From Isoetes taiwanensis (Eukaryota; Streptophyta; Lycopodiopsida; Isoetales; Isoetaceae): a stretch of DNA of 64,000 bases. The DNA lies in the NCBI GenBank assembly GCA_021234155.1, contig JAJEKV010000005.1, positions 9,852,572 to 9,916,571 on the forward strand. The letters are read 5' to 3'. The notes below the pieces were generated by a model, which saw nothing but the letters and a program-made list of their open reading frames with translations, searched no databases and had not been told where the DNA came from. Of the stretch, positions 5,077 through 55,205 are shown one piece after another. Within the stretch, counting starts at the first letter, position 1. Every line of letters begins with the position of its first letter. Both the position numbers and the translations under genes were made by a program.

Positions 5077-5220
5077 GATTGTTGCCACGCTTTTCCCTAA
5101 AAACCCCGTGGATTTTTAATCCGGTAGTAATCCGCTTGTCAGCGCTTTGTATCGGGTCTCATAGACCGATTGGTCTCCTCGCGGGATCGAGTAAAAATAT
5201 CTTCCTTCCTTCCTCCTTAC
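5077..5220 (+). other. LINE copy 1 3' stem-loop and short-repeat tail
   Basis: GATTGTTGCC (5077-5086) can pair throughout with GGTAGTAATC (5123-5132) if G-U pairs are allowed as in RNA. The loop carries TTTTCCC..AACCCC..TTTTTAATCC. The tail GTAAAAATATCTTCCTTCC at about 5191-5210 is a CTTC microsatellite. The equivalent stem-loop and a TATTC-repeat tail end LINE copy 2 at 55038-55198. I infer an RNA structure read by the element's own reverse transcriptase. Confidence 0.6.
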
Positions 5221-5221
5221 T

Positions 5222-6599
5222 CCACAAACCATCTTAAATTATAATTTCATTTCATTGTACTCAAGAAGTCGGATTTGCCAAGTCAGCCATGAATAAAGAG
5301 CATGTGGTATAATTCTTAAAAGGGACAAATGCATTCTCGATGGCGTATCGAGATAAATTATACATGAGGATTTATAGCTGGTAGTCACATACCCAATAGG
5401 TCTAGAATTGCAACTACTTAACCGCCAGATAGAGGCTAGAGGTTAGACGCCCCTACAAAATATACCTGCGATCCACCGCACACTCTCAGAGGAAATCCCC
5501 ACCGGCCCTCCGACCGCATCTGCTCCCTCCGCCTATCCCGCGACTCGATCATCACCTAGTGCGGAAGGGGACACGGCGGTGTCTTTAGCGCTCTTCCTAT
5601 GGGCTCCTATCAATGAAGCATAAACAACGTAATCCAGCAATAACAACACATCATATATTACCCTCTAAGGGTAGTCTATCCACATATCCATAGCTAGCAA
5701 AGAAGATAAACATATGCCATAAAACATGAGAGCTCCTACCCATGGTTCAATTCATGGGGAGGTTGACCGACCGGGCTAGGCCTCAAGATATTTTTCGCAC
5801 TGAAGTCATAACAATGGCGGGCCGGGCTATAGACAATGGCTAGGGTTGATTCACTCCATCCTCTCCCTCGCGTGCATATTTTGCAGATGGCTAGATCAAG
5901 CTCGCATGACTCTAGCCTTCCGGATACGCAATCCCACATCACCCATCGACTACTCCAGTTGCATCTCCTCGGGTCCGGCCGGTGCGGTGAACGGTTGCAT
6001 CTCCCCTTCCTGGCCCAGAGGTTCCACGACGCCAGAGAATCGCGGGCGCATTAACAATGACTGCACCCTCGAATTTAACCCCCAAAAATAAGAGCCAAGC
6101 CAACACTTGCAACTCTTGAGAGGCGTGGCGACACCATTGCCCCTGTGGGTGTTCCGACCCATGCCCTCGGCCACACGGCACGACCATAAGCTCCAGCCCA
6201 CTATGGGATCCCCTCAGAAGCTCCCCCGCCCCAGTGGATCCTCCCTCCCATCAGCCCCAGTAGTACTGAAGTCACATCATAGCCTATAGCCCGGGATGGG
6301 TTCCTGTATGCACAAAGCCGCGATAATAATAGAACTAAGGGCTCCGTGACTAGGAGCATACTACGAATGGCTACTTCAGGTCTATACCCCTTCCAATACA
6401 AGAGGAGCAAACATGATCAACCAACATCACATAACATCATATCATGATAATCATCATAAGAACATCTTAACCTAATCATACATATCTAACTTACAGCTAG
6501 GGTTCCTTTGGATTAGGGTTCAAGATGTTGAACAAGGGTTCTAGGATGGCTCTACCGGGTGTGTTTATGCTGATATGCGCCATTTTCCTACCGGGCTAC
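5222..6599. other. No gene recognised; GC-richer patch at 5.74-6.4 kb
   Basis: I see no supported gene. 5740-6400 is richer in G and C than its surroundings and encodes only short frames on both strands with no motif. The short palindrome CCCATGGTTCAATTCATGGG lies near 5739-5758. GGGTTCC and TTAGGGTT words occur near 6500-6530. The patch could be a piece of an unidentified retroelement terminal repeat, but no second copy lies in the window. Confidence 0.4.
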
Positions 6600-9130
6600 A
6601 GCTTCTTTTAGCACTTTATTTTCGCTTTTTTTACACTCCATGTCCGCGGATCGGCAAGAACCCCGACGAGCCGTCACCATAAAAGTTGAAGGGCAAAGTT
6701 GACGGCCTGGAGAAGGCCACCGTAACAGAAAGTTTTGGGCTAACTTCGCAAAGAAGGTCAATCCATGATGAATCAATGATTAATTCTCCTGTCACAGCTA
6801 ATGGACGGGAATCGTCCCACCCATCGCTGCAAAAGATCTTCAATGAATTTGGAAATAATTCATGTTTTGAGTTTACAAAACTCGCTTTTTTGATCTGAAT
6901 TCAAGTACTTGAAGCATGGCTGTAATTCAAAACCAATTCCGCAGGTAACAAGCTCCCTTGCATTTCTAAATTTTTTAAGGACCAAATCCAGAACTCGGTT
7001 TTGCGTGAGTTACTTTTTGCAAGAACACTCCATTGAGTTTTCAAAGAATCGGAAACTTCGGGATGAGGGAAAGAATCCAAGAAGTATCAAATGGGCGATG
7101 TTCCGCGGGCCGATTTTTTATGTGTCCGAAAACCTATGCCCAAACCGCAAGATACACACCGTTAATCAAGCCCCAGCCAAGACAAAGACTCGACGATAGA
7201 GAGAGTTTATCGTAAACCGCTTCCAAATAATGAATTGAGAACCCCTTTGCAAGGGCTTTGCCCCGTCACATACGTAAAAGGCATTGCATCCCGACGAAGT
7301 TTAAGGTTAATTGGGTAAGTCTTGCGCAGATGCTTACGTGGATTGGCCAAGCTCACCAACAAAGAACATGTGAATTGCTTTCTAAAGAACACCACTGCAT
7401 TGCTGAATCACATCAGGTCACTTTCCCATATGTATGAGGACAGCAAGAAGGAATTGGTGCGTAAATGTGCCGAATTGAGAATGGAAGGTTCCATCGCCAA
7501 CTCCACTCTGCAAACTTCAAGGATCTAGAAGACGAGATAAAGGAGAAGAGGCGATGTGGGATGGATTTGCAAAATGCCTCAAATTCTCATGAGGAAGAAG
7601 GAATACAAGAGTTGCAAGGGATGGCAAGCTCTCCAAGCTTCTAGACAAGGCATGTCGAAGGTGAACACTTCAGTTTGCAGCAACTAAAGAAAGAAATTTC
7701 TATTCTCAATTTTGATATTGAAAATTATAAAACTAACATTTAGTTCCTCGGCATGCCAAGTGCAAGCATGTGGCTCACTAAGATCAAAAATGAGAAATCC
7801 AAGAAGAATCTCCTTAAAACCGGAATGGGAACTTATAATTTCAATGTCCATATAGGGGCAACTACATGAGGGTTGTGGCCTCTTCGCTGTGAATATGAAT
7901 TCGTTAAGCTTAATTCATGGTCATATTTACCATGTAATATGTTTCAAGGTTAGGCCGGAAGGCATGCATTGTATCATTGCATCCTGGTCAGGATGTTGAG
8001 GTTCCTCCAAGTATTCTTGATGAACTTGGTTTCAAGGAACCTGCCACCAGGTTCGCACATGAAGAAGAATCAAGGAAGAAACAAATGTATTAGCGAAAAC
8101 CAAATAGAAGGAAAACCAAATAGAAGAAGTAGAAAACCAAAGAAGATCGAAAAAAGCGTATGAGGTGACAATTCCAAGAAGAGATCCAGAGAAGAAACTA
8201 GCCTCGAAAGCACCTCTATGTATAATGATCCACCTCAAAGTTCGATTTCAAAATTGCCGAAAGTGGCAAAGAAAAAGAATAAGGAGTGCCACTAAGTCAT
8301 GGTCAAAACCCATAGATCTAGGTACTATCTCAAGATTTTCTCAAGTTAGTTAAAGCCTGTTTTGAAGTTTGCTTCTATTCCTTGCAGATCCAATTGATGC
8401 GGACAAGCAAGTTAGTCCTAATGAAGTTTTCTCACTTAGCCTCGCGGAAGATAGTCCTCGATAGGCAAGAAAGCAAAGCAGGTAAAAAATTAATAATTAC
8501 GTGTATTTGAGTACAATACTTAAGATTTTTTTGCTCAAGATTTTTGTCGCATGGTGTTGTAGGATGAACTTGTCCGCGACTATTTTGCAAAGGCATGATT
8601 TGTCTCCAAAAATGAAAAGGTAAGCAACATTTCAACATATGTATCATTTACTCATGTGCATTTGACTCACATCAGCCTTTTAAATGCGTAAAAAATTCTT
8701 CAAAAGTGGTTGGACAGATGGTGCCGCGGGAAACCGATGCTTCAAAGGAGGGCTTATCCTAAATGCACACTCCGCTTAAAAAGGTGTTACCCTTTTTCAA
8801 AGACATGTGTTCAATAGTTTTATTTTAGTCCGACCTAACTTGTATTATGCATCCTCCGCCCAGCTTTGCATTGTTCAAAGAATGCCAATTACCTTGAGCA
8901 CTTGTAAGTGTTATCTTGCAAATTTGGTTTGCACAAATAGCCTTAACATTAACTTGTTTTGTTTCAGAAGTCGAGAGTTGAGCACGCTAAGGATCCCACC
9001 AAGATCGAGATATTCTCTCCGTGACGAGGAAAGGCCGAGTCTCCACAAAGCCCATGTTCCATGGAAGATGATGTTACCATGGAGAAGTGGTTGAGAAGAA
9101 GATGCATAAGAAGTTGCAACTGTAATCCCT
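6600..9130 (+). pseudogene. Multi-exon coding relic A, coiled-coil-rich, unrecognised
   Basis: Several stretches read like exons of one lysine- and glutamate-rich protein. Near 7333-7510 a frame contains SLSHMYEDSKKELVRKCAEL, and a frame from 7506 to about 7866 continues with KDLEDEIKEKRR and LQQLKKEISILNFDIENYK, heptad-like and probably coiled coil. That second frame is broken only by TAG codons. Towards the 3' end there are convincing splice sites: donor AAAGCAG|GTAAAA near 8480, acceptor TTGTAG|GATGAA near 8562, donor GAAAAG|GTAAGC near 8622, acceptor GTTTCAG|AAGTCG near 8967. The last exon reads KSRVEHAKDPTKIEIFSP and may end at a TAA near 9125. Frameshifts and in-frame stops prevent a full protein. 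I do not recognise the family. Confidence 0.45.
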
Positions 9131-9899
9131 CATGTTGGCAATACCGCTTAATCTCCATGTTGACAATACCTTTTTATGTTGATTAATATCGCTTTTTATC
9201 GCACCAATTTTCCCCTTAGGTGCGAAGTTTTGAACATTTTGTGTAACACTTGTATGAAATGACGAAGTTTCTCTGAATCGTAAAATGATATGTTTGCTTT
9301 GATATTTTGCACTTTTGTTATGAATATCCATGTATGAAAGCTAGAAGTATATCAAGGCCACAAATTCCTCAATGCAAACACACTTCAAATTCATTTTCAA
9401 TCAATAACACAAATCAAAAGACATCTAACTAATTGACAATCAAATTCAATCTCAAACCAAACAACACAATTCCAATTCATTACACGAATGTGAATTTCAT
9501 TACAAAATCAATGACCATATAATACAATGGTTAAAATTTCATCATAATGGTTTGTAACAATGGTTACAATCATAGAATGGTATACAAATGTACACCCTAA
9601 AAGAATTAGGTTGTTCTTCTTTTTCCCCGAAGTTTCTTGTCTTTGTTAAATTCAAATAATTTGATGCAGTTCATCCGAGTTTTGAGCTATCAATGCAGTA
9701 ATCGCTTTGTGGCAAGCTGTCCAATATTTGGTTATGTGTATCTTTCCAAGTGATCAAAAACAATACCACTAATCTCGTCAACTCAAAACAAAGAGAAGTA
9801 AACTAAAATGACTATAACATTACACTCCCTCAAGTCATTTACCAACTCATATCCGCGTCTCTAAGAACTTGTGAATAAACCAAAGGACAACTACTCATT
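9131..9899. other. AT-rich intergenic DNA between two convergent coding relics
   Basis: No gene or named element is seen. The stretch is rich in CAAAT, AATTCA and TTACAA words and could hold the 3' flanks of relics A (+) and B (-), which point at each other across it. Confidence 0.5.
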
Positions 9900-13490: not shown

Positions 13491-13499
13491 ACATGCTTT

Positions 13500-13830: not shown

Positions 13831-13839
13831 CGATGAAGC

Positions 13840-16520: not shown

Positions 16521-16527
16521 GGTTGGC

Positions 16528-16767: not shown

Positions 16768-16769
16768 TT

Positions 16770-25123: not shown

Positions 25124-25223
25124 TGTTCTATAAATAACAAACATTCATGCCGAAAACTAGAGTTTTGGTTATATCGAATTCCAGTTTTTATCTCAATTAG
25201 CATGCAGAAGAGTCAATAAATAC

Positions 25224-25679: not shown

Positions 25680-28600
25680 TCATAAATGCTCCGAGATAAG
25701 AGGGCCTCTTATCTCGGAGAGGGTATGCAAAATTTCCCGCATACTTGGTCTGTTGACAGGCTCCCCACTGGTGCATAGCAGGGCTAACTTCAGTAGAATC
25801 ACCAGTTCTTCTTGTGTAGACTCATGGGCTATAACAGGATCGAGGATCTCATATACAGTCTGTGTTTGTTCCAGAGTAATCTTTACCCACATCTCACCTC
25901 TCAATGTCTTCACAAACTAGGATCAGCAGGGAATTTGCCTGTGAGGGTTCACCGAAATTTTACCCCACCATGCGTAAGCATCAATTTTCTCGTTCCTTTC
26001 ATTGTCATAGCGAGACCTCTGTCCTTAAAAAATTATTCTTCGTTTAGCGGACAAGATAAAGAAATTCGAGATAGTTGAAATTTACCTAGACAATATATAT
26101 CCAAAAGTGCCAACAATGCTTGACATAGATAAACCGTTCTTGTCAATCAGCTTTGCTATGCCAAAATCAGTGATGTGTGGTACCATATCAGAGTCCAGGA
26201 GAATGTTGCTGGATTTGATGTCTCTATGAACAATCTGGGGTCTGGCATCATGGTGCAAGTATGTCAGTCCCTGAGCAATCGCAATGCAATCTTTTACGTA
26301 TGCACTGTTTCCAATCAAGAATCGATTATTTGCTTGGGGTGCAGAGCATCATTTAAGTTTCCTCCTTCAAGGTAATCAAGCACGATGTAACCATTTTCTT
26401 CTCGAGTCATGAATCCAATAATTTTAGCTAGATTTCTATGCTTCATCTTGCTTAAAATCTCTATCTCCCTCTCAAATGTTGTTGCCACTGACTGACTTGA
26501 TAGCAACAATTGTTTTACTGCAAGAACCCGTCCAGAACTTGTAGTTACTTTATGTACAACACCATGACCACCTTTTCCAATAATATTGTCCTCTGTCAGG
26601 TTTTGTGTTGCTTCCACTACTTCTTCTACTGACAAATACCTCCTGTCTGCAAAAAGACGAATGGATTTTTGCCTTTTATGAGATGCGGTTCTTTTGTACA
26701 ATAGTAAAAGAAGTCCAAGGACTCCAAAACAGAATGCCACTGCTCCAAGGACAATCCCAGCGATGGCACCAAAACTGATTCTGATGCCCTTTTTAGTTTC
26801 CTTAGCATTATCTGCATTGCAAGATACATTTGAAATGCAAGTCCTGGGATTCCCCATAAATGATTCTACTTAGTGGCAACATTCTGAAGTTTTTCCATGA
26901 TTGAGGAACACTTCTGTCAGTTCATTAGATGACATTGACAGATATCAGAGACCGCATATCAGATAAACTTTCAGGAATAGCACCTAATTTGTTATATGAA
27001 TGAATCCTTTCTCGAGCTTTTGTATTCAGGGGCTTCCGCTCTGCTGATATACTGCCATCGAGCTCATTTAAGCTTAGGTTCAACATCATGCTTAGTTGGC
27101 CTAGCTTCCCAAACTCAGCAGGTATGTGGCGCATAATTTGTTTCTTCTTCCAATCTTGGCTCACGAAGTCTCTGAAACAGAAAGAAATAAAAGGGGATTT
27201 CTCCTTCAGACTATTCCTTCTGGATTCAACTGCTCCAAGGAACTCAGATTTTGTATTTGGACGGATATTTCAGCCTTCAAAAGTTGATAAGATCTAGAGA
27301 AGTTATATTTTTGCAGTAAGCAATTTCTGCTGGAGAATAGAACCATTCAGCTTATTATCAGAAAGTCAAGGATTACCAACTTGGAAAGACACTTAAACTA
27401 CTTGGGGCGGTCCGTAAAGCAAGTTGTTTTTAAACTTTAAATGGCTCAAGTTCCAGCATAATCCAGATCCCATGGAACTAATATGACCTTCTGATTTATT
27501 AAACCAGCAAAATCTAGTAAATATAGACTTTAGATGAGTTCAAAGCCTACAGGAATGGCGCCATTTAGAGGTTATTTGCCAGTTGCAAACATACGTACTT
27601 TTGCACCCTGCTAAGTCTTCTGGGATGGTGCCTGATAGCTGATTTCCTTCCATGTCCAAACTCCAGAGATGTCCAGAAGCACATAAAAATGGAGGAATCT
27701 TTCCTGTCAAACTGTTGTGATTAAAGTCAACCAGAGAGAAATTATTCAGCTTGCCTAATTCCTGAGGAATATCACCTTGCAGATTGTTGTTGTCAAGATA
27801 CAGTTCCTTCAAATGTGTGAGATTGCAGAACTGTATGGGTATGGAGCCATTGAGCTTGTTAGTCCGCAGGTTCATCACAATGATGTTACTTAAATTTCCA
27901 ATATCTCCGTGAATAGGACCTGTAAAGGCATTCTGATCTAATCTCAAAATTTCAAGCCTTGATAACCTACCTAACTCCCTAGGAATACCACCGCTGAGCT
28001 GATTTTCCTGAAGAAACACAGAAACTAAACTTTTGGCATTCAAAATCTCTGATGGGATGTTGCCACTCAAGTTATTGGAATAAAGGGATACCCTGTCAAT
28101 TTGAGACAATAATCCTAGCTCGGAAGGGATATTTCCTGTAAGGTTGTTGTTTCCTAGGGACAACTCTTGAAGCAGGCTGCAATTTCCCAATTCAGAGGGT
28201 ATTGAACCATTCAACCCATTGAAAGACAGATCAAGTATCGATAGAGAAGTGCAATTACCAAGCTTTGGAGGAATGCCACCTTGCAGCTGGTTACGAGACA
28301 AGTAGAGTATTTGCAAATTTTGAAGCTCACCAAGTGATGCTGGAATGTTGGAAGAGAATGAGTTGCTATTAAGATAAAGTATTTCCAGCGCGCCGCAGCT
28401 CCCGAGTTGTGAAGGGATTGGTCCAGTGAGGGAGTTGTAGTCCAATGCCAAATACGTTAGATATGCAAGCTCATGTGGGAAGTCAATCTGACCAGATAGT
28501 TTCTCATTCCAACCCAGATCCAAGTGTCGAAGCTCTTTCAGCTTAAATATGTCAGATGGAATTCCTTCAGACAGATAGTTGGCACGAAGAGACAAATATG

Positions 28601-29042
28601 TGAGCTGGTACAATCTTCCAATCCCTTGATGAATTGGCCCTGTCAGCAAGTTGAAGCCCAGATCAAGATATTCAAGTTTAGTGCAATTTTCAAGTTCTGG
28701 TGGTATGATGCTGCTGAAACTATTTTGACTAAGATCCAACCTTTTAAGCTTTGTAAGATTGCCTATATGGGGCGCAATATTCCCTCCCAATGATAAACTG
28801 GACAGATTGAGAGTTTGGACCCTTAAACCATCTGCAGTGCAGGAAATATGAAGCCATGAGCAGGGACTAGAATCAGAGGCATTCCAAGAATCAAGCATTT
28901 TCTGAGTGTCTATGATATAGGATTTCAGAGAAATAAGTGCTTCTCCATCTTGGGAGAGCTTGCAATTGACTAGAAATGATGGAAGAGTTACTGCAATGAG
29001 AAAGATTCTTGTCATCAAGTCGTTTATGGACAAGGCCGCCAT
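25680..29042 (-). pseudogene. LRR receptor-like kinase pseudogene (duplicate of 55302-58652)
   Basis: Reading from ATG at 29042, the first 500 or so codons are open: signal peptide, N-terminal LRR cap, then about 17 LRRs. A one-base deletion near 27580, seen against the intact copy, shifts the frame and stops translation at 27540. 27.5-26.9 kb is eroded by many indels. 26857-26315 is open again and encodes the transmembrane segment and kinase N-lobe, with GKGGHGVV and LAVKQL. 26318-26082 gives HRDIKSSNILLD and DFGIAKL, then a two-base insertion breaks the activation segment at GTFGYI. The intron is still visible at 26085-26019 (67 nt). The last exon has further frameshifts but keeps the C-terminus, ending ISEHL and TGA at 25682-25680. 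At least five lesions make a full-length product impossible. A truncated secreted LRR fragment could in principle still be made. Confidence 0.88.
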
Positions 29043-29264
29043 ATTGGGCTGTCTTTTTGATAAATCCACCAATCACACTATTTTCTATCTTGTGCTGCAT
29101 GTTTAAATAAACTGCTTATCAAGGACTAGGTCAGGTGAACTAATATTGTATATTGTATGAGCATCAATAAACTAAGACGATTTGGACTGTTTCCACTCAG
29201 AATATCAACTCGCATTAACTCGCTTGTCAAAGACACGAGCATATACTATACTAAAATATATAAA

Positions 29265-30525
29265 AAACCCGATCTGCCTTGCATGTGTTTTGCTGTATCT
29301 CTTTTGGCGGTAAGGTGAGTGTCTGAGACTCACTAAATACATTAGATAATATTCTAACTGTTTGACTCAATAAGTCATTTGGACAATATTTTAAGTATTC
29401 TCCAAATGGTAATGCTCTTAAATATAATTCTGATGTCATCTAGTTGATCCTCAGTTTTTAGGCCAAGTGTTACTTGCATGTGTATGCTGTATCTTTTGGC
29501 AATGGGTGGTGATACCAGACTCCTAAATACATTAGACAATATTCTAACTATTTGACTCAATAAGTCATTTGGACAATATTTTAAGTATTCTCCAAATGAT
29601 GATAACACTGATATAATTCCTGATGTCATCTAGCTGATCCTCCAGTTTTCGTTGTTAGTAACAGAAATGACAATCTAGAAGTACTCATAAAACCATTGAT
29701 GGTCTAGTTGTGAATGACGTTCTTGGCATTTCTTTGATATGAATTATTCTAGAAAAGTATTTGAAGTCAATGAGCTAAAATGGCCTAGATTGTCTAATCA
29801 AAATCAACTTGCATTAACTAGAACATCCCAGTTGGAGCGTACTAATATAAAAATCAGGTCAAGCTTTACATGTGCTCAGGCAGGTGGTATGCCAAATGGA
29901 ATAAATCTTTATCTAAATAGTTATAGTCAATAAGCTAAATCACAAAGATATACCTAGGACCCATGCTCCACGACAATACTGAAAAATCTAAACAAATATA
30001 GGGAATGTACAAATGTATGCGCCAATCCTTAGGAATATAGAAGGTGCAATACACAACAATCAAGAGCTTCCCAATCCCTAAGAATATAAAAGGTGCAATA
30101 CACAATGGTCATGAGCTTCCCTGGATTCATATCCGGGCTACACCACAGGACTAAATAATCAGAAGTAGACCATACCTAAGCTATACCCCAAGGCTAAATA
30201 ACTAGTGGTAGGACATGCTTGGGGCAAAGGGTGGGTTGCTCTCTTTATACGAAGGGTTCCTACTTGTATATGTCAATTGCTTATCTTTTGGCAATGGGTG
30301 GTGATGCACACTCACTAAATAATTGGGGAAAGGGGTGGGTTGCTTGTTTATGGGAAGGGTTACTACTTGTATATTGTCAATTGCTTATCTTTTGCCAATG
30401 GGTGGTGATGCAGACAATATTCTAACTATTTGACTCAGTGAATCATTTAGACAATATTCTAACTATTTTTCAAATGATGATAACGTTGATATAGTTCCTA
30501 ATGGTTATCAAGCTGATGCTCCAAT
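29265..30525. repeat. Diverged about 185-bp repeats upstream of the pseudogene
   Basis: Units containing TTTTGGCAATGGGTGGTGAT, then TTTGACTCAATAAGTCATTTGGACAATAT, then TGATGTCATCTAG recur near 29285-29455 and 29470-29645, and in altered form at 30285-30520. Between them a 104-bp sub-unit (GTGGGTTGCT..TTATCTTTTG) occurs twice, at 30231 and 30335. The same arrangement lies in copy 2 at about 58855-60100. The + strand of the units has a protein-like texture but no sustained frame. Confidence 0.75.
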
Positions 30526-32607: not shown

Positions 32608-34215
32608 ATATTCAGCCGGTCAGCGTGGCGAAATCATTCTAACTCAAAACGAGCATGCATGCATGCATTGCATGCATCGCATGCGTTTGGGCCGTTCGAT
32701 GAGTTAGACATTTGCTACTTATTCTGATTCTTCATCGACATTTATGGTAGCTTCTTCTTCTCTCGTGATGCCTTATTCTCTTTGAACCCACCCTCCCCTT
32801 TCTTTTGTTTTACTATATTTTGTACAGGATTGCATTTGTCATGTTTTCCACTGGGTGGGTGATGCTTTTTCCATCCGGTTTGGATCAAAAAGCGGCGCCA
32901 TCGTTTTGACTTCTCCATGCAGCGGAGTTTTGGGAAGCGATTACGCCTTACGTTTAGCCAAGCGCAGAACTTATCACTAGGAGTTTTCCTCGAAAAGTAG
33001 GAATTTTTAATCCGGTGATAAGCTTTGGCAGGTATCAACACTCATCTATTAGCATTGTATTTGTTTTTAGGGTCCAAATGTATAAATTGGATTTTCCCTT
33101 TATTTTTTAAGTGGGTAGTTAGCGTGTGATAGGCTATCCTTGTCCTCATTAATAGAAATGTGGGGATAGATAAAGGAAGCCTATCTATCATCTCAACTGA
33201 TTTCTACAATGGTGGGCGGTGGATAGCGCACACATAGAACTACCCACGAAAAATAAAGGAAAAATCCAATTATAACATTTGGACCCCAAAAACAAATACA
33301 ATGCTAATAGATGAGTAAGGCGATGTGTACTAAGCTATCAAGGATTAAAACCCGCCCTTTGGGTTTTAGGAAAAACCTAGTGATAAGCCTTACGGCGAGA
33401 TAGACAAGCGTAAAAAGCGAATACCCAAAAACAGCGCGGAAATCAAAGCGGATGGCGGCTAAGCCAACACGGCGCATCACCAACAACAAGCGAGAAACAT
33501 ACCAAGAATAGCATCACCCGATTGGGTGGAAAAAAGCATCACCTTAGGAGTGGAAAAACTTGTCATGAGAACTTGTACGATATAGTAAACAAAGAAAGGG
33601 GAGGGTGGGTTCAAAGGCCAAAGATGCTGAAGAAAAGAAGCGCCCGATAAAATGTGATGAAGAACTGCGCAATAAGTAGCAGCCCATCACGGCGAGCGGC
33701 CCCAAAGCGCATGCGATGCATGCATGCGGCGCTGTATGCATGCATGCATGCTCAAATAACGAGCAAGAATGCCGATTAAGCTACGAATCCTGACAACATT
33801 CTTACTAGCATTTCGCATGAAACCAACAAAGCGCTGAGAATACCAAAGGACTTCCTTAACAAACTAGGATGAGGGCGAAGGTCGCAGGATGAAGGCTAAA
33901 AAGGCCGAAAGGGCCAGCCGGGAAAACAGCGCCAAATTAGCCAAACAGGCGGGGAAAGAAGCCCCTCCCACACTTGCGGGGACAAATCAAAAGAGAATAA
34001 AGATGCTGGCGAGGAAGCGGAGTAAAATATACCGATGAAGAACTTCTGCGCAATAAGTAATAGCCCATCGACGAAACTGACCCAAAAGCGTCACGTGCAT
34101 GCATGCGACACATGCAATGCATGCATGCATGCTTCGTCTTGAAGCAAGAATCGCAGATTAAACTCTGGCGAATGCGACAACGTCTTACTGCTAAACTCGC
34201 ATAAAACCAACAAGC
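32608..34215. mobile_element. Foldback-like inverted-repeat insertion
   Basis: Left arm 32653-33139 and right arm 33221-33752 are imperfect reverse complements around an 81-bp centre. The innermost part (CATCTATTAGCATTGTATTTG.. to ..AAGTGGGTAGTT) is the best matched. Both outer ends carry ATGC runs. A partial third copy of the right-arm outer portion follows directly at about 33960-34210, with its own ATGC run at 34096-34132. Each arm also contains a LINE-type 3' stem-loop (32970-33022, and 33331-33390 on -). Copy 2 of the segmental duplication lacks the whole block: it has about 30 bp of T-rich sequence at 62220-62250 instead. No transposase frame is present, so it is non-autonomous if it is a transposon. 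Confidence 0.75.
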
Positions 34216-34857: not shown

Positions 34858-37800
34858 GGGTGTATTAGGAATGTTAAAGGCTTTACAATTCCTAATCTAT
34901 CATTATTCAAGGGCACTCAAATGAGGCAAAGATAACATAGGAAGATGTGAAGAGAGGGTGCAATTTAGAAATTTACATCAATCTTTAGCATGATGATAAG
35001 CTGAATTGTAAATCGTGGTTGTCACACTTTCAATCAAGAGTCCTAGTCGTGTGTCTCAGACGGGCGGCTCTTAATCATTTTGGATGATCATGGTAGCCTT
35101 GTAGACTTGATGTCATTTTGTGATGGGACATGGAAATTCATTTTTCCCTTGTTGCTTGCATACATTCATGGGCTGCAACCTTTGGATGTTGTTTCTTTTG
35201 TATCTTTCAATGCGGTAGCTTTTCAAGCATATGGGGTTGTATATATGGTTAGGAAAGGCTGAGGTTAGGGCCTAAGAGGAGGAGATTGTTGAGCTAGTCT
35301 CACTATCCATTAAGATAGGATTGACATCAAGCAACACAAGGCTAGATTGTTAGTGAAATTGGTATTTTGCCTTTATATTACGGAAAGAGTGAGATTAGGC
35401 TTGAAGGTTGTAGGTTTGTTAACCATGTCGCTGGCTTTACAGTGCATCTGGCCGAGGGAAGATGTGCAGATGGCAATGCCATGGGACTTGATGGCAACAA
35501 CCTTGATGAAGCATGTGTCTTGAATGTGCAAATGCATTTGGAAGGACCACAGGAGATTGTTCATCGATCAAAAGCCGGAGTTGGAAAATGTGATGTTGGA
35601 TATGCCTGTCGAGAACCTAAACATATGCAACATCAAATTGACAATGTGAAGGGCATGCATTGGATGCTCAAAGAGAAAAAGCCAGGAAAAAGGGCGGTTC
35701 GGGCTACACCTTAATAGGTATATATTTTACAAGGAATGGCCTATTATATACTTAGAAAAAAATCATATGTGGTACACCACCTTAAATGTATTATTGCTAG
35801 TCAGAAGAGGTTTTAGAGGAAGAACCTTGACACTAATATGTATCTTTGAGAAATTGTACAATGATACATTATGATGCAGCACCCAATCTCGCTGCGATAT
35901 CACGAGGGCATGGCGGGTGCATGCATTCGCGGTGGAATAGATTCTAGCACATCCCTTTGGGGTTGTGGTGAGTAGCACATGGTCTGTTGGTTAAGGAAGC
36001 GGGATCAACTCGGCCTGAGAGGGTGGATATGAGTGATGCCATGCAATCTTGCAAGTATGACATTCACCTTCAATAATGCCATGGTGGAAACAGCGGCATA
36101 TATTATTCTATCCTTCGCCTCCCGATCCCACTTGCCTACACACCAATTTAGAGGCAATGTGCATCTGTGCAAGTGAAGCTATCAATGCCACCTGCACTTT
36201 TTAGTGGCAAATGTATATGGAGGTATACTTTGTGGACATGGGGTTGATGAAGTTGGTAGTGTATTGTCTTAATATGTTCAAGACCACACTGGCATCCAGG
36301 CTTAGCGATGAAAGAAAGTATCAAGGTATGAGTGCGTAATGGCGATCCCTCTTTAATTTCAACACAGTATGCATTTGCGCTCTTGCACATATCTTGGGCA
36401 CAAGTCTCTCTCCACTTTGGGCTTTCGTCTCTCCTTGAGGCATTCTTGGAGCCCACATCCGCAGTATAAGCAAGGTGAGTTGATTGGTGCCCATATGACT
36501 ATCTTCAAAGTAGATAATGTATGGCAATCAGAGTCTTGTGCTTTGTAAAGTAAGAATCATGTCTCTTGTAAAGTATGGACTATGGATTTTACCTCAGTAC
36601 TTTGAGCTTCATTAAGGCTTTTCCTATTTCCAGGTGGCTAGGGTATGAGCCGGGCAGGAGTTACCGACTCTTTACAAAAGAGCGAGTTCTACCAAAACCC
36701 CTAAGCAGCATGAGATATGGGTCGATCGCCATAGCTGCATCTTTGTATTTATTTACTCGCATTGCATACAATGCCTTCCAACACAACTTGATAGAAATAC
36801 TAATACGTAGTGCAGGGAAACTCGTCCAAGTACTTGCAGGTGATTACACACCACATTTTGGTCGATAAGTGAAGAAAGGAACGCCGTGCGCCATAGAAGA
36901 TGAGACAAGCGATACCTCAATCTTAACCAAATTGGCCCACATTCCAATGGCTCGGTAGAGAGTATCAAGGACATGTAGATGTTGCTCCATGTCTTCAAGG
37001 ATCTTCCAATTGATTAATGTAGAGGCCAAACGACATTGAAAGAAGGCGAGCATCCACAGCGGACCTATACTATTGTTGGCGGGCTTTTTACGCCGATGTC
37101 ATTCCCACACGGCCGGAGTCTCATACAACATAGTACATACTATATTTTTGCAAACTATAGAGGCTCTCAATTGTCTTCTTTCCTACAACTTTTACGTAAT
37201 GTCCCACTGCTCATATCTGATGTTCCCATGGTATAGAGCAGGAGTTCATCCCTCGTTCCAAGCGTACATGTACGAGGAGCCATCCACCCAACATCCGAGA
37301 TCATACAACCAACAGGACTGTGAGTGAGATGGATGTGTCATTCATCTAAATAAGCCGCTGCTGGCCCAAATCGTTGGGCAAGGGAGAGTTACTAACTTGG
37401 GACCCAAATTGGGGTTTGTACCCCATTTGCCCCAATTGGTGGGAGGTTGGTGGAGGAGGAATTTCTTGTTCCACCCATGTTCCCGGTAGGAAGGATGGAG
37501 TACCCGGCGAATAGTGGACCTAGCTATGATCCGTTAGATGCGTAGATAGCTTGGATTCATGATAATCTCATACGCCTTTAATTCATCTTGATATGTTATT
37601 TGAACCAAAATGGTATGCGGTTATTGACCCGGTAGCATCATTTGCACCTTCTCTTGTTCCTTGAATGTATAATTCTCTGCAAAATCCCTTTCACAGGGCC
37701 ACGATAAATGCTGGGGATTCTCTAGGAAGCTCCTTGAAACATTTTACTGCTATATATTATAATATTTATTGTGTAAGGAAGTGTTGGACCCAGCCCTAAT

Positions 37801-41636: not shown

Positions 41637-41637
41637 T

Positions 41638-42428
41638 TACCACACACCACACCACACCCCACCACACACCACCATTCACCACACCGCACACCAAATGGTG
41701 GAGTGTAGAGTGGTGGTGGGTGTGGTGGGGAAGGTAGTGGTGTGTGGTGGGTGGGGGGGTGAGTAGTGGTGGAGTGTGGTGTAGTGGTGGGGCGTGGTGG
41801 TGGGTGGTGGTGGTGGTGAGTGCATTGGTGGTGTGTGGGTGGTATGATGTGGTGTGGTGGAGTGTGGTGGTGGGGTGTGGTGGTGGTGGTGGTGTGTGGT
41901 GTGGTGTGATGGAGTGTGGTGGTGATGGAGTGTGGTGGGGGTGTAGTGGTGGTGAGGTGGTGGTGAGGTGGGTGTGGTGTTGTGGATTGGCGGTATGATG
42001 TGGGTGTGGTGGGTGTGAGGTGAGGTGGTGGTAGAGGGGTGTGGTGTGGTACCGGTTGGAGTGTGGTGGTGGTGGAGTGTGGTGGTGGTGGTGGTGGAGA
42101 GGGGTGTAGAGGCGTGGGGATATGTGGGTGGAGTGTGGTGGAGGGGTGTGGTGTGGGATATGGTAGAGTGTGGTGGAGTGTGGTGGTAATGGGCAATGTG
42201 GTGCATGTGGGTAGTAATGTGGTGAGTGTAGATGTGGTGGTAGTCTATGGTGGTGGGATAGATGATGGGGTGTGGTGGGGTGAGGGGGAGATAAATGGAA
42301 TTGAATCCACACATATCATACATTAGCATACACCTGCAGGCTTGACACCATGGACATAATGCACCCCGCCACACCGCACCACACCACCACCCGCGACACC
42401 ACACCACACCACACACCATCCACGACAC
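41638..42428. repeat. GT/CA-rich low-complexity block with two strand-bias flips
   Basis: 41638-41698 is built of CACCACA words. 41699-42292 is almost entirely T and G (GTGGTGGTG, TGTGGTGG). A 66-bp mixed spacer follows, then 42359-42428 returns to CACCACACC words. Frames that are long here, rich in His, Thr and Pro or in Gly and Val, come from the base composition and are not genes. The flanking CA tracts can pair with the GT core, so large hairpins are possible. Confidence 0.9.
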
Positions 42429-42429
42429 C

Positions 42430-43375
42430 CCATCATCACATCACCTTATCCTATTATTTAAATTCGACGCCAAAAATCTGCCTAGCACCGCTCTCATAAA
42501 TACTTACGAAATTGTTACACCACGATAATAATTACATTCTCTTCTAATGCATTTAGAAAGGATGGGTCTAAAATCACATTCCTAGCGCGTCGATTTTTGG
42601 CGTTTCATTCCCAATTGAACAAGTTCATTCAGGCAACATGGTAGGAGGGATGTTGAGAGATCACTACGGCTATTGTAGGGTGGCCGAGGAGCACTTTCGG
42701 CACATATTGCATGAGACTCGTGATCAATCTCACGAAGGTGAATATGCCTAAATCTACCTTCTTTGCTGATTTTGAATCAACCTAAAGGCATACAACGAGA
42801 CTGAATCTTTGGGCCTTCAGCGGCTATGCTTGGAGTGATTGGCGAGAAGTGAGCTCTTAGACAAGGTCATGAGCTTATGTTACATCTTTAACGCAGAAGC
42901 ATTTGGATTTATTTGTTCTCTACATCACTTGTAAAACGACTGCGCAATGGCGGGGAATTCTTGTGAGGTTGTGTTCTTACCACCGGGGATCACGGGAAAT
43001 GCGGCATCTGTTAAGTGCAGGATGGCGCAAAAGCTTGGGTGTAGTGCGGAAAACAATAATTTTGGATGCACGGTTCTCGAGCAAGTCATACCCGGCATTT
43101 CACATTTGCTTAGGAAATGCATGTAAATTTGGTTCACCAGTGCAGGCTTTTCAATGGAAGAAGCCAAATTTTTGTAAAAGCCAAATTTTGTAAGATCCTT
43201 TTTTAATATATTATACTCCAACAGTACGTGCTTGAATCACGACAAAATTGTCTTTATTCAACAAAAATTTGTATCTTAGGATCGATTAATTATCATTCTC
43301 AAAATATTTTAATTTGTACACACACTTTCGGTAAAAGGAGTACTCAATTACTGTCATGTTCCTAATATTCAAACA
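42430..43375. other. No gene recognised
   Basis: Only short frames without motifs on either strand. 42903-43221 is open on both strands over about 95 codons without recognisable content. AT-rich otherwise. Confidence 0.4.
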
Positions 43376-47340: not shown

Positions 47341-47341
47341 A

Positions 47342-47915: not shown

Positions 47916-50900
47916 GGCGTATGAAATTGTTCCATTCGTGCACCGATCAACCTAAGTTGTCCATATCTGATTGTGGAGGTACCAATGGGCTATGTAAAGG
48001 CATTGATAGTGGCAATCCTAATCTATATAGAATTAGGATTGAAAATATCTAACATGTACATAGGCCTTGATTTAAATATGAGATAAATATATTTGCAAGT
48101 AAAAGATCGAGGAGAGGAGGAAACAAGGTTAAAGTGTGTCTAAGGAAGTTAATAGAATGAGAACAAAATAAAGCTTGAGAAGTGAAAGCGTCTTTGGAAT
48201 AAACCAAGGTCATCTATTACTATAAAGTAATAGTTCCTATAAAATGATGCCCTACTGATGGAAGGAAAGAATATTTGCCATGCACATTTATAGTCTTTAA
48301 AGCATTCTTAATGTTCTAATAGATTATGTGATTTTTGAAAATCACGGTGGTGTTCTTATCCAAGCAATAAAAAGAGGCACAAATATGCCAACAAGCTTAA
48401 GGGAGTACCATTAGATTCACTCTTTGGGTGATTACGCTTCCATATTAATATGGTTTTAGGGGCTTTACCCAATATTTGTACTGAGTGGGCTACTTGATTA
48501 CCGATTATTTAATAGTTCCTTTTTTGTTTAATATTTTTGCTTTTCTTACGTTTATGTTTGGTTCTACTTGGATAGAATTTGTTAAGGGATGTACATTGGT
48601 CTAGCGAAGAAACCACGATACCCTTGTTAAGATGTCAAATAGGAGATCCTATAGTTTTATTAAATGCTTAATTTACGAGAAGTTAAATTTGGTATGAGGA
48701 TTTTCTTTAAACCCATTCTCCGTAAGACTATTTATGCGTCAAATTGTTGGACTAAGGACTCAAATTGAGGGAATTTGGTTTATGATTAGTCCAATAAACC
48801 ACCCAAAATTTTTCGTCATTGACCTTTTTTTTTTTTGGTATTATTGCTACTAGCTTGCAAAATGCATCAAGCAAAAGTCTCATGAGGCTCACCAAGAAAC
48901 CTGATCAAAGTGGTGGTGACAAGGATGGACATACCTTTGTGTGATGGGAGTCGGCAAGATGCGTCTGTAGTCTCACGAAGCGGGCTGAACAAGATACATG
49001 CATAGTGCGGAGTTAGAAGAGGATATTTGTGTAGTATGTGGTTCAGTTTGCAAAATGGCGGAAAACTTACACCTTGATGCCAACTTCTTATGAAAAAGAT
49101 GAAAACGATGCATGATATTGAGGATAGAGAACACACTTGCATAACCTTGGAAGATGCCAATGGGTAATGATTTCATATAGGAGAGTCATGTTTTATTTAT
49201 ACAAGTCTCTATGTGAAAATTCTTCCTTTTTCTCACTTCTCACTTAATAGATACCGTTTTGCTAAATGCTTTCTTCCTTAGCGGATTTTTCACTGTATCA
49301 GTTTTACAAACTTCCCTTTGAAGGTTTTGTTCAATATTTCAGTTTTCAACCACCTCGGTATGTTGATTTATGTTATAACGAGGGGCATATAATATTCCAT
49401 ATTCCCATTCATTTAAGTTGCTTAAATGGGTACATGTTGTTTTACACTAGTGAATTTGTATGGGTTAAACTCATCACTTTTGAGGAATAACAAATGAGGG
49501 AGGGCAAATTGACGATTAAGCGAAGAGGCTTAAGCGGGCCTCTTTGGAAAGAATTGTGATTGCTCATAGGACCACATTTTTGCATGCACCTCACACCTTA
49601 CGAATTATCATTATCATCTGCAAAGTGGTAGCAGTGTTGGTCATTCTCATTTGGCCGTTTATTCTATTCCCGGTCCCCTCACAGTGCGAGATATGCTGTG
49701 AGAGCAAGCCCTTTCATTTGTAGACAATTCACCAAATGTAATATCTGGTTGGAATTTCGTTACTTTGTTGTTTATCCTTCTCTAGGTCATTAATATTGCA
49801 CATAGGTATCCTATGAGGGTAAAAGAGTGGCTAGGCATATGATTTAAGATTCTCTCTCTCCCCTCCGCCCCCCCCCTCCCCCCCCTCCTTTTTTCCGACA
49901 AAGGAGACGTAACTTCTTTTGCCCACATCGATTCCGGACATTTAAGAATAAAAATGTCCCCATAAAGAAAAATCAAATCGATCCATGGTTTGAGCACTAC
50001 AATTGTCAAAGTCTTATACTTTGTAAAGAAACATTTCAAAATAGTCATATTATGACACCTTAGTAGTAAGATTTCCAAACTCCCCACTTGAGCACTTTCA
50101 ATACCACCAACCAATAGCGCTGATTTTCCTTAAGCATCCTTATGAATTAGGCCTTGTGATAAATTTCTTGTCTACACATATATAATTGTGTTTCCTTAGA
50201 TTCGATTCTTTTATACCTTTGATATTTTAGTAGACACATACCCAGTTTTTCACAGGTACAGCAGCCGTCAAAATTTTTAAAGGCGGTTGTAGATATACTT
50301 GTGGAAGCCACAGCAAAATCTTGGTTTGGGCATGGAAGCGACCCCAAACCAGCTGACCCCCAAACCCGGCTGACCCAATCCAGGAGCTTGAAGCGAGGTG
50401 GTTCTTTCTTAGATCCCTTTTTTTTTAATATGCGAGTTTTTCTTGAGTGCCGTTGGAGTTGACCGGCGGATTTAGTGGCCCTTTTTGTTTAGTTTCATCT
50501 CCTTCGATGGCAATGCGGGTGGTCTGGAAACATATGACACATTTTGGTATGAGCAGTGATTGATGATAGGCAATCCCGGTCGCCAAAAGGATCAAGGCTT
50601 CAATTGGAATGAAGTGAGAATTAAATTAATTACTTATTATGCTTGTCGGTTGCAAAATCGATGGAATTGCCCAAATTCAAGAATTTGTCTCGGCTTTTCC
50701 ACATATTTGTAGAAGCTGAAAGGAGCCCATAGTCCTATATTCCGTCGGCATCTGAAGGGATAAAGCGGGGAAAAGAGCATAAATAGAAGAATTTGAGACA
50801 AAGGGAAATTTAAGCCCTATTGCGGTTCACAGAAAAATGAAATTATTCGATTCAAAAATCATGATTTTGCATATGCTCAACGATTATTTCACGATTGAGA

Positions 50901-51930
50901 GAAAAACTTATCTTGGTATATGGGCTGGCCCACAGTAGGCTTGCTATACAAGAATTATTCCCATGCAAATAAAAGCGGCCATATGCAGTGGCTGAGCCTA
51001 TGACTCTCTGAACCCTTATAATTTTTATTTGTTCTTAGATGATCACCGGCTCTCAAAGTTTATCTCTTTGCCATAGATCTGCTCTCACAAGCGTTTTGCC
51101 ATAGACTGACCATCTTTGCTTTTTGATTGGCCGAAATTAGAGCACGGGGTGGGAGCCAGAAAATGGTCCTGCCTCCTACTTTCGACCTCAACAATCATCA
51201 ACAGAGACAACATTGGATTTGCCGGGCAAACAAATTGATGATTCACCCCAATAAACAATTTACCGGTTAAAAGAAAACCCGAGCAATATCCCGGATGTCG
51301 AGAGGGCAATTCACGAACCTCGGCCTCCAGCGCGGCAATCAACTCCCTTGCCGCCGATACAAACACAAACAATCCGATTACTTATGCAAAGGGGGCCAAT
51401 TTTTTTTCCGGAACCGTCTACGGGTCGGTATGGCCTTCTTTTCTGTTGCCTCGGATTTTTGGCTACTATCCGGCTATTCGGATACACTGCATCAAACAAA
51501 CTCGGCACAGATCCGAATTCAAAACGGCGCACGCTTGATATCCTTTGTGTGTTAAGTTATGTCGACTCTCTCATTCCTTTTTTCTTCTTCCGCGTCCCAA
51601 TGCTTATTCAACACAATGTGTCAATTATTACTCTACCAAATGTTCATGTGGCATGACTATAATTCAAGCATTGATTTTGTTAATTGATTTACTTGACAAA
51701 CCACCTATATGATTAGCGGATAGACAACATAAAGTCACTTGACATGGGTTCTTTACATTCCATTTACAACTACTAAAGATTTTCTTATATATTTGCCCTT
51801 ATGGCCTTGACAACTTATGTTCTAGAACTTACAATCCTTTTGTATTATGCTTAATTGATAGTTTTAACTTATTCTACCTATAACATCTCTAGCAATCACG
51901 TATTTGAATCTAGTGCTATATCAAGCTGCA
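47916..51930. other. Gene-poor stretch
   Basis: No supported gene. A homopyrimidine tract (CTCTCTCTCCCCTCC, then C-rich to CTCCTTTTTT) occupies about 49851-49895. 51085-51540 is slightly GC-richer and open on the - strand in two overlapping frames (ARELIAALEAEVRELPSRH in one), without a recognised domain. Otherwise AT-rich. Confidence 0.4.
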
Positions 51931-51931
51931 A

Positions 51932-52069
51932 ATATTTGGAGGTCCACTAATTGGACAATGTTTTGACTCCAACATGGAGTATATGCAAAATAACAACTCA
52001 TATTTGGAAGTCCACTAATTGGACAATGTTTTGACTCCAACATGGAGTATATGCAAAATAACAACTCAT
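51932..52069. repeat. 68-bp tandem duplication, nearly identical
   Basis: ATATTTGGAGGTCCACTAATT.. at 51932 recurs at 52000 with a single visible change (GGAGG to GGAAG). Each unit holds the near-palindromic CTCCAACATGGAGTATATGC. The high identity implies a recent event. Confidence 0.9.
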
Positions 52070-52883
52070 TGTTGAGACTAGAGAATTATTTTCATTAGAA
52101 TTGTTTTTATTATTTTTGCTAGATTCATATGCATGCTCTTAGGTTGCATCCCCCATAGTCTACTCTTGCAATGCTAACACACATCACTAGGACCTCATAT
52201 TATAGAAGCTTGACAAGTCTCCGCATTTTGGGGCATAAATAGAGTTACAGGTCTCTGAGGTGAGATTGTTATATTTTACAACTGACCTTATAAGATGGGT
52301 GTTATATCCACTTACGTCACAAAATAGTGGCTTAGAAGACAACAAGAGGATTAAAGAATATTTGAAGGATTAAATTATTTGATTACTTTACAAAATAAGA
52401 GCCTACAATTGATGAGCAATGTTGCAAATAACAAGCAACACCCTTCAACAACTATGGTAAAGGAGACCAAAGATGGGGACAGAGTCATCAAGTATTGTGG
52501 TATCGCTTGAAAGACAGCAACAGGCCTATATTCTCTGCTCAAGGCAACAAGGCATTCCTTCGCATCAATAATCTTTGCACAAAACATTGCAAGAGCCTTT
52601 ACAATTCTAATTGTAAGATAAATTGAGAGTAAATTGCTAATTAACACTTGAATACTCCATGGAGCAATCAAGTGAGACAAATCAAGCTAATGTTCTATAA
52701 ATAACAAACATTCATGCCGAAAACTAGAGTTTTGGTTATATCGAATTCCAGTTTTTATCTCCCCTGGCATACAGAAGAGTCAATAAACACAAAATATCGA
52801 ATACAAGATTCTTGTCACCTACACGACAATTACAATAGTGTGTAATTGTGCACGCGTCAATGGGTCTTCTAATGGGCAACCCA

Positions 52884-53083
52884 TTGATGCGTGACATGAC
52901 ATGTCAATTGATGCGTGACATGACATGTCATGTTTATGTATGTATGATATGGAGCCCAAAAAGATGTTTTATAAAGATGTGACAGTCAGAAAGAAGACTG
53001 CCATGGAAAAAGGGCCTGAAAAAATGTTTTATAAAGATGTGATAGTCAGAAAGAAGACTGCTGTGGAAAAAGGGCCTGAAATA
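52884..53083. repeat. Copy-2-specific short tandem duplications
   Basis: TTGATGCGTGACATGACATG is present twice around 52885-52928. A 60-bp unit (AAATGTTTTATAAAGATGTG..AAAAAGGGCCTGAA) starts near 52961 and 53021. Copy 1 has only one version of the latter at about 25455-25505, so both expansions happened after the duplication. Confidence 0.85.
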
Positions 53084-53132
53084 CATATTTGACGAATGTT
53101 TGCCTTCTAGAAAAATTTAAATTTGTAGCTCT

Positions 53133-55205
53133 TGTGATTTGGATGGGATCTGCAGTGAGCTTCTCAAATTGGGCGGGCCCCAATGAGTCTTGCGGTTCTC
53201 ACGGCACTCTTCAGCGGGCATTGCAAGAAGGCTTCCCCCCGCCTTTGGACTACCCCCGGTAGAGTTGTGCCCATATACAAAGCGGGGGACCCCCGCGGCC
53301 CGACCAACTATCATTTACCATTATGGTCGATTACATCTTTGCCAAGTTGTTTGTAGGGATTCTTGAAGCCGGCCCGACACTTTGGAAGGCGGAAGGATGG
53401 AGAAGTCTGCGGGCTCTCAGCGGTGACTTCGCCCAGGCATTCTACTATTGGCCATATCTTCACTCTGCGAACCTCATAGAGGATAGCGGAATCAACGCCC
53501 GAGGAACTGTCTTTGTTGCTTTATGGATTTCATAAAGGCTTTTGACCGGTGCCTCGGGATAAGTTGTGGGAACCCGATTGAGGCGGTAGGGGACCCCGTC
53601 GACTGAGAATGCTATATCACCAGGACTATCACGAGGCTTGCTTTCAAATTGCGTCTCACACTGCTCCGGAGGAGCCCGTTGTTAGTAACATTAGAGATGC
53701 GCGGTACGCCCTCTGTATCCCCGGCAGCTCTTACGGCTTGTACATTGACGGCTAGAAGAATGGCTAAATTTGAAACTGCGGGGAGGGCTGATTGATGCAC
53801 CACGCATAATCCGGCAACTCATATATGCGGATGATGTTGACTGCTTCGCATATACGAGGACGCCGCTAGCGCCACACGGATGCTTTGGACACTACGCCAA
53901 TTCCTTTGGCATGAGAGTTAACAGCCCGAAACTGAGAATGTGGCCCCAGAAATTCCCATCATCCGGCACCCACTTCCCTCATTCAACACGAGGTGTAGTG
54001 GAGGTGGCTCGATCTTATAAGTATTTGAGCATTGAGTTTTCTTGCCTTGGCAGGATGCATCCGTGAGATTCACAGTCTCACTTTGCAATTTTGCGACCAC
54101 ATATGCAATAAAACAACGGTCACAAAGCGGTTTGTATGCATAATGGGGGTCACCGAGCACACTTGTTGAGAGCCTTGGTTGAGCGATCCTCCTACATGGG
54201 GCCTTTGAGAGATTAATGAGGGGCAGTGATATACTCTGCAGGAAGAATCGAAGCGTCAGAGGCGCTGCGGCAGGAGTGAAATCCACGGTCCCATGTCGAG
54301 ATCTTGCTCCGAGAGCAGGCTTCCCTTCCATTACGAGCTGCGGTAGAGCGTCACATTATTTACTTCGAGGAGAAGGTGGTGGCTATGGATGAAGCCCGGC
54401 TGCCCAACCTTGCTTTGGCGATGGCGATGGGCCGCAAGCAAGCCAGTGGTTCTCAGCGATGGAATGTGCGAGCACACGAGATGTGGACGAGTGCATACAC
54501 AGAAGAAACCTTGGCCCGATTTGAAGCGATCTTGGATGCTTGCTTCATGGCCAAGCTTTGGGATCACGAGGAGGCCACATCACGTATCAAGGTAGCAAAT
54601 TGCTCGGCAATGAGGTTAATCCCATGCTCACCGAGGGGCCCACACACTACTGCGCACCACCTACCCACGTAGCCTTGAGGGTGCTTCCCGTTCATGAGGT
54701 CACACCACCTCGCATTGAGACATGGAGATGGATTGAGGGCAGCGGGAGGGAGCCAGTCTGTCGATCTTTGTCAACTGGTGCCATTGAGGATGAAAGTCAA
54801 GCCTCCCGGGCTTTATCCAGTACGAAGCGTATCCGGACTCGATATGCTCGGTTAGTTGTGCCCCATCGAGGCCTGCGCCAGGCCTCACGAGCCGCGACCT
54901 CTGTAGGCTTGTTGGGATAAATCTGCTCCGGGAGGTAATGGATCTAGCGAGATTTCGATTATGCCCCACGGCCCGGGCAGTAGCCTCGGGCTGTGCTTGT
55001 GATTATGTATATAATGCATTATGTAGAAAAGCATCATATTGCTACTAAGGTTTTCCCAAGAAAACCCTTGGGCGGGGTTTTAATCTAGTAGTAATGCGCT
55101 TTCTTTGCTTTCTCGCACTTTTTGTACTTGGAGTCCACATTAGGCGATTGTTCTCAGGTGAACTGATAAAATAAGTATTCTATTCTATTCTTTCTGATAT
55201 CTATG
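53133..55205 (+). mobile_element. 5'-truncated LINE, copy 2, inserted downstream of the kinase gene
   Basis: GC-rich DNA interrupts the duplicated 3' flank between GTAGCTCT and ATAAATTCC, which are close together in copy 1. It begins inside the RT N-terminal region, with VVPIYKAGDPRGPTNY from 53264, then IFAKLF. The polymerase YADD lies at 53824-53835 in LIYADDVDC, followed by VARSYKYLSIEFS near 54000. An open C-terminal stretch of about 120 codons lies at 54304-54672. The 3' end has a stem-loop (55038-55095) and an ATAAGTATTCTATTC tail to about 55198. Truncation at the 5' end is the usual product of target-primed insertion. Frames are broken, so no active RT. Its 3' end faces the 3' end of the kinase gene (tail to tail). 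Confidence 0.85.
55038..55198 (+). other. LINE copy 2 3' stem-loop and short-repeat tail
   Basis: ATTGCTACTA (55038-55047) pairs with TAGTAGTAAT (55086-55095) over ten positions, with one G-U. Inside, AAAACCC and GGGTTTT form a second pairing. The tail is a TATTC repeat. The arrangement parallels 5077-5220, though the stem bases differ. Confidence 0.65.

Follow-up and report, generated by a model that had tools for sequence, protein, structure and literature searches.

A U-tract hairpin at LINE 3′ ends and in a foldback family of Isoetes taiwanensis: a probable element for nuclear expression of transposon RNA

What is the role of a stem-loop that recurs near the 3′ ends of two decayed retrotransposons and in both arms of a foldback element lying between them? 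The question is raised by 64,000 nucleotides of the genome of the lycophyte Isoetes taiwanensis (GenBank assembly GCA_021234155.1, contig JAJEKV010000005.1, positions 9,852,572 to 9,916,571 of the forward strand), a stretch that we call the window and whose coordinates are counted from its first letter. An earlier note on this DNA had recognised four copies of the stem-loop, two of them in long interspersed nuclear elements (LINEs), and had proposed that it is a covarying RNA structure, probably the handle recognised by the LINE reverse transcriptase (RT), which non-autonomous elements could hijack. We find that its lower stem is a covarying RNA structure. As to its role, likeness to known systems makes it more likely that the hairpin guards the transposon RNA than that it offers a grip to the RT. 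Hairpins that act in this way are the elements for nuclear expression (ENEs), in which a triple helix, formed by a U-rich internal loop around an A-tract, protects RNA ends. Tycowski, Shu and Steitz reportedly described, in 2016, transposon ENEs with at most five base triples.

Placed side by side, 60 relatives drawn from the genome display a feature overlooked in the earlier note: between the variable arms there is a constant core, GG-UUUUU-CC ... GG-UUUUU-AAUCC, made of two U-tracts bounded by G-C pairs. Written as the pattern GTTTTTCC-N8-36-GGTTTTTAATC and searched for in 1,658,258,908 bases over 1110 contigs, the core is matched 2064 times (1014 forward and 1050 reverse), against three times (1 and 2) for the reversed control of the same pattern. 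For the tests described below, 60 pattern-chosen copies were hand-picked from 100 matches listed of these 2064, spread over contigs and loop types. The pattern fixes the U-tracts, and families with six U's escape it; such is family E, for which a pattern of its own has 280 matches in the genome and none in its control. Six family-E matches follow one another on the same strand at G000 C446:344380-370074, about 5.1 kb apart, as if the LINE were there in a tandem array. In the lower GG/CC flank, one position is unpaired in 13 of the 29 rows of a MAFFT alignment.

Where does this core sit? When 59 pattern matches were placed, 47 were found at LINE 3′ ends and 11 in the short foldback family, with one unresolved (L118, put with the LINEs by a loose motif test, is counted by its arms as foldback family, and L075 stands outside these 59 while being included in the 60-copy arm test described below). 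A run of TTCC or TATTC starts 58-87 nt past the core in 37 of the 47 LINE placements. A sample of 20 copies was also chosen by RT, hand-picked by rank among the 150 RT matches listed for a query consisting of the RT of one LINE copy; the hairpin lies downstream of the RT, on the sense strand, in 18 of them, a proportion that speaks for one RT group and not for every LINE, all 150 listed matches being 75-100% identical to the query. In the other two (L133 and L144) no match to the hairpin model was found downstream of the RT. These counts support a location at LINE 3′ ends. At least four U's are present on both strands in 15 of the 18 RT-chosen copies having a model match, CC follows the first U-tract in 17 and GG directly precedes the second in 17, and it counts against our interpretation that these copies were recognised by a model that rewards U-tracts, so that the conservation of the latter is partly built in. 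One of the 20 LINE copies, L147, has kept an intact open reading frame (ORF) of 1085 amino acids, ORF2, with apurinic/apyrimidinic endonuclease and RT domains, and its sequence matches in the PDB are the R2 and L1 RTs; its hairpin starts about 106 nt past the ORF2 stop, and beyond it come a second hairpin, GATAAAA and a TATTC repeat. The hairpin is, in general, located near the LINE 3′ end, upstream of GATAAAA, and the tail of the DNA copy is a microsatellite.

The covariation of the lower stem, suspected from four copies, was borne out in a wider set. As the alignment of 29 copies leans on similarity, an alignment-free test was added, in which the duplex energy between the two arms of a copy is set against that obtained with arms taken from other copies. 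Own arms gave −17.21 kcal/mol against −11.99 for shuffled partners in 78 copies, −14.25 against −10.36 (standard deviation 0.50) in the 60 pattern-chosen copies and −27.09 against −22.82 in the 18 RT-chosen ones, none of 5000 shuffles being as good in any of the three sets, with the proviso that the shuffles ignore kinship within families and that the cores of the 78 copies, as well as those behind the RT-chosen fold counts given below, were located by a regular expression demanding C after the first U-tract. If the arms are considered as eight families, the natural pairing of 5′ with 3′ arms comes first by total among all 40,320 possible matchings. In the 29-copy alignment, paired cells amount to 90.4%, against 84.2% in shuffles; cells with two-sided changes number 37 against 13.3 and the covariation score is 0.342 against 0.241, values that none of 500 shuffles reached in either case, and there is no excess of further pair types (15 against 16.1). 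To the eye, the 3′ arm is nearly identical in families A and B and the changes in their 5′ arm mostly amount to a slide to G-U; it is the foldback family, together with LINE families outside the window, that supplies the clean two-sided changes.

What the two U-tracts may do within this stem is best approached through the predicted folds of family E, which contributes six copies to the RT-chosen 18. In each of the six, the minimum-energy fold places a U-rich internal loop between a lower stem and a short upper one; the second U-tract is open along its whole length in every copy, though two copies retain only two or three U's there, and one to three U's of the first U-tract are paired. Over the 18 RT-chosen copies as a whole, the second U-tract is fully open in 14. 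Because its lower stem covaries, because a U-tract is present on each strand of the loop with G-C pairs as bounds, and because it is positioned near the LINE 3′ end, we consider that the stem-loop is probably an ENE of transposon RNA, an interpretation drawn from sequence, folding models and analogy. Both U strands would close round an A-tract as a U.A-U triple helix; a poly(A) tail could supply these A's, or else the GATAAAA directly ahead of the tail, with its A4-5. The triple helix would shield the RNA 3′ end from deadenylation and decay, and the shielded end would leave more RNA for retrotransposition. The foldback family carries this module too, its presumed source being capture or common descent.

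Besides the circularity already mentioned, a series of results weighs against this interpretation. As regards the arms, only four of the eight 5′ arm families (A3, C, E and foldback) pair best with the 3′ arms of their own family; the 5′ arms of A and B pair better with the 3′ arms of family E, those of a mixed D/other group pair better with several foreign 3′ arms, D2 ties with A3, and just 7 of the 20 copies of the mixed group reach −10 kcal/mol. The covariance model and covariation test that had been proposed, while giving support through the score and the two-sided cells, did not give it through the number of pairs with two-sided changes, which is 4 against 3.2 and was reached by 138 of the 500 shuffles. 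As regards the loop, only one of the 18 RT-chosen copies leaves the first U-tract wholly unpaired, 3 of the 5 U's being open in most, and both U-tracts are fully open in just 1 of the 60 pattern-chosen minimum-energy folds; forcing them open costs 3.4 kcal/mol on average in these 60 copies, in an energy model that knows no triplexes. Closure of the U-tracts in these predicted folds arises from pairing of the loop AAAACC with GGUUUU. For the upper stem past CC/GG, which folding displays in the six family-E copies, no covariation was found in the 60 copies (own −4.78, shuffled −5.11, with 4942 of 5000 shuffles at least as good). The LINE DNA copies end not in poly(A) but in (TTCC)n or (TATTC)n. 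Finally, the gathering score was not attained by any Rfam family, whether in the window or in three loci searched by E-value. The latter yielded four matches, all far below gathering, of which two lie on the hairpin: mir-9413 (E 0.0063, 28.6 of 100 bits, opposite strand) and PsrR1 (E 0.46, 21.8 of 42 bits), both taken as chance likeness to a long hairpin.

The A's of the loop deserve attention in their own right. Among the 60 pattern-chosen copies, for which the pattern left the loop interior free, AAA is present in 60 loops, AAACC in 56 and AAAACC in 44, and in all 60 the A-strand could form 5 bp or more with the G-U strand, a count made with no shuffled control. As the loop has AAAACC in most families, U5, A4 and U5 would all lie in a single hairpin there, and one may conceive of a self-contained triple helix, a U.A-U triplex dispensing with a poly(A) tail, as would suit LINEs whose tails are not poly(A). 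Microsatellite-ended LINEs would then cap their RNA by themselves, family E being a derived form that uses an external A-tract. Family E keeps both U-tracts and has no AAAACC A-strand in its loop; this is why the self-contained triplex was demoted from leading reading and now seems unlikely to us, the evolutionary scenario built on it being just as doubtful. Since the U-tracts occur where the loop has no A-strand, a normal ENE is favoured. The same family bears on a simpler proposal, that of a plain hairpin, AAAACCC/GGGGUUUU, standing atop the lower stem, with a merely incidental 5′ U-tract: this hairpin does appear in the minimum-energy fold of several copies, yet family E, in which AAAACCC/GGGGUUUU cannot form, retains its 5′ U-tract, and we hold the proposal to be highly improbable.

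If the U-tract hairpin is an ENE, another structure might be the one to which the RT binds. A second conserved hairpin (AGRCC-loop-GGYCT and relatives) sits between the ENE-like hairpin and the tail. Among the 45 copies fitting a regular expression that leaves the central-pair positions largely free, 14 have an A-U, 25 a G-U and 6 a G-C central pair; 23 other copies, both window LINEs included, do not fit it. LINEs of the stringent type need a hairpin at the very 3′ end for recognition by their RT (described in PMC5135761). One could accordingly imagine that the U-tract hairpin itself, found as it is near the LINE 3′ end and ahead of the microsatellite tail, is the stem-loop bound by the RT to start target-primed reverse transcription, and that it was borrowed by non-autonomous elements. 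This was the function put forward at the outset, and it found no support: the part common to the LINEs and the foldback element is the U-tract core with its G-C pairs, the foldback family, the one kind of short element covered, has no LINE-type tail, and the other hairpin is nearer the LINE tail, with an A-U, G-U or G-C central pair in all 45 fitting copies. Because of this second hairpin and of the nature of the shared part, the RT handle was set aside as the main function, and it appears decidedly unlikely. We infer that the terminal hairpin is the better candidate for the handle, with the ENE guarding the RNA. The 3′ stem-loops of stringent-type LINEs (UnaL2, ZfL2 and SART1; PMC5135761), as there described, resemble what is seen here, namely a conserved hairpin near the 3′ end before a short-repeat tail, and the description suits the terminal hairpin better than the U-tract hairpin.

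How did a second class of element come to possess the same module? The foldback of the window consists of two copies of one non-autonomous element, tail to tail. When compared by blastn with L130, taking position 5206 of the latter as the 3′ end of the element, the left arm (32620-33189, + strand) corresponds to 4543-5170, about 36 bp short of that end, and the right arm (33188-34159, − strand), a second, inverted copy, to 4185-5152, about 54 bp short. Copies of the family are also tail to tail at L045, L054, L055 and L058, and the inverted pair of the window is therefore no single accident. Four copies studied in full (L128-L131) are 0.65-1.04 kb long and have no LINE-type tail; no YxDD-type motif was found on their sense strand, and no Pfam match in two ORFs. 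Subterminal inverted repeats, with a palindrome lying beyond one of the two, characterise the family (in L128-L131 and, by a loose regular expression, in most of 20 further copies); the repeats read ATTCTTGC ... GCAAGAAT or, in a subfamily, ATTCTAGAATGGGAC ... GTCCCATTCTAGAAT. Head-to-tail units, with the end of a unit within a few bases of the start of a unit, are found in 13 of 20 copies (a looser expression gave 19 of 20 and was not relied on). The ENE-like hairpin lies about 225 bp inside the element end in the three copies where this could be measured.

The idea that a non-autonomous element shares the hairpin held, then, in so far as the hairpin is present in a short element (11 of 59 placements); the look of a short interspersed nuclear element (SINE) mobilised by a LINE did not, and a SINE was rejected on account of the missing LINE tail, the subterminal inverted repeats and the head-to-tail copies. 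The match of L121, a LINE of family A, to the element copies in L128 and L129 is limited to 42-47 nt of the ENE core, at 87-88% identity, a sign that the ENE module alone was captured or is shared by descent. By analogy, the family resembles non-autonomous Helentrons, that is, rolling-circle elements of the HINE kind. With the DINE-1/HINE elements described in PMC4067079 it shares subterminal inverted repeats, a palindrome beyond one of them and common head-to-tail copies; an internal ENE is absent from the description consulted.

We may now return to the window. The four copies are where they had been placed, and the 29-copy covariance model scores them, best first, at 71.9, 61.4, 50.9 and 37.8 bits (E 6.6e-16 to 3.5e-7), the next-best match in the window having E 0.48; these scores are no independent proof by themselves, the 29 copies used to build the model including these four. 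Copy 1, at 5077-5132 (+) in a LINE of family A, is matched over 5075-5139 (E 3.3e-13) and has its arms at 5077-5086 and 5123-5132 and its U-tracts at 5091-5094 and 5113-5117. Copy 2, at 55038-55095 (+) in a LINE of family B (E 6.6e-16), has arms at 55038-55047 and 55086-55095 and U-tracts at 55051-55054 and 55078-55081. Copy 3, at 32970-33022 (+) in the left arm of the foldback (E 1.6e-10), has arms at 32970-32978 and 33014-33022, U-tracts at 32984-32987 and 33004-33008, and a degenerate upper part. Copy 4, at 33331-33390 (−) in the right arm (E 3.5e-7), has a decayed lower stem, and its U-tracts are at 33371-33375 and 33347-33350 in + coordinates. Folding each copy singly recovered the pairing of the arms first described for copies 1, 2 and 3, with z values of −0.37, −2.06 and −4.12, that of copy 1 being slight; copy 4 (z −1.72), which had been thought to pair as well, favours a different fold. 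Since blastn makes copies 3 and 4 the opposite arms of a single inverted structure, they cannot be taken as independent cases.

The RT remnants of the window LINEs were located by tblastn, with the intact ORF2 of L147 as query. Upstream of copy 1, a decayed ORF2 with endonuclease and RT pieces extends over 1664-4392 (+); downstream, the candidate RT handle, AGACC-GATT-GGTCT, occupies 5154-5186 (+), where relatives have theirs, its outer stem being altered so that it misfits the regular expression, and a (TTCC)n tail at 5202-5214 (+), comparable to the tails of relatives, marks the 3′ end of the LINE. Upstream of copy 2, a decayed RT region covers 53146-54917 (+; best E 5.4e-37); the terminal hairpin region is at 55130-55164 (+), decayed and likewise a misfit to the expression, and a (TATTC)n tail at 55176-55191 (+), again judged from relatives, is the 3′ end. 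A third decayed LINE RT fragment was found by tblastn at 36627-36993 (−). About 0.8 kb downstream of it, a model match at 35782-35840 (−; E 4.7) is non-significant alone; its letters resemble a decayed hairpin of the ENE-like kind that has lost its second U-tract.

The remainder of the window contains leucine-rich repeat (LRR) receptor kinase genes. One pair of tandem repeats recurs at 30022-30412 and 59603-59993, near the LRR kinase-type genes at 27543-29072 and 55305-58736 (−), and this suggests a segmental duplication. A long GTG/CAC-rich tandem-repeat region at 41639-42440 is open in several frames.

It is worth considering, in conclusion, how these observations compare with what is known of transposon ENEs. 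A computational survey of ENEs in plant and fungal transposons was made by Tycowski, Shu and Steitz in 2016 (cited through PMC12501189 and PMC11411715), and transposon ENEs are described as strongly associated with long terminal repeat (LTR) retrotransposons (PMC12501189). Among the papers that our searches listed, we found no report of ENEs in LINEs or other non-LTR retrotransposons, in Helitrons or in lycophytes, and the 2016 survey may already include LINE or lycophyte cases. In this lycophyte genome an ENE-like architecture, with covarying arms and more than two thousand pattern matches, recurs regularly at the 3′ ends of LINEs and in a short element that is otherwise unlike them. Should the triple helix form, protection of the RNA end would be used by transposons even when their DNA copies end in a microsatellite, and the U-tract hairpin and the terminal hairpin would split the LINE 3′ end into two separable jobs, survival of the RNA and recognition by the RT. 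The closest parallel is the ENE in the 3′ untranslated region (UTR) of the Arabidopsis element Evade, which, in the part of the report drawn on here (PMC12501189), forms a triple helix with A20 for which the U-tracts and the flanking G-C pairs are required, and the deletion of which lowers both RNA level and mobility. The Copia93/Evade ENE has in common with the present hairpin a stem-loop, a U-rich internal loop, G-C flanks and a place in the 3′ UTR of a retrotransposon; it differs in belonging to an LTR element and in having four U-rich tracts (PMC12501189), whereas the hairpin of Isoetes has two, and is carried by LINEs with microsatellite tails together with a second class of element.

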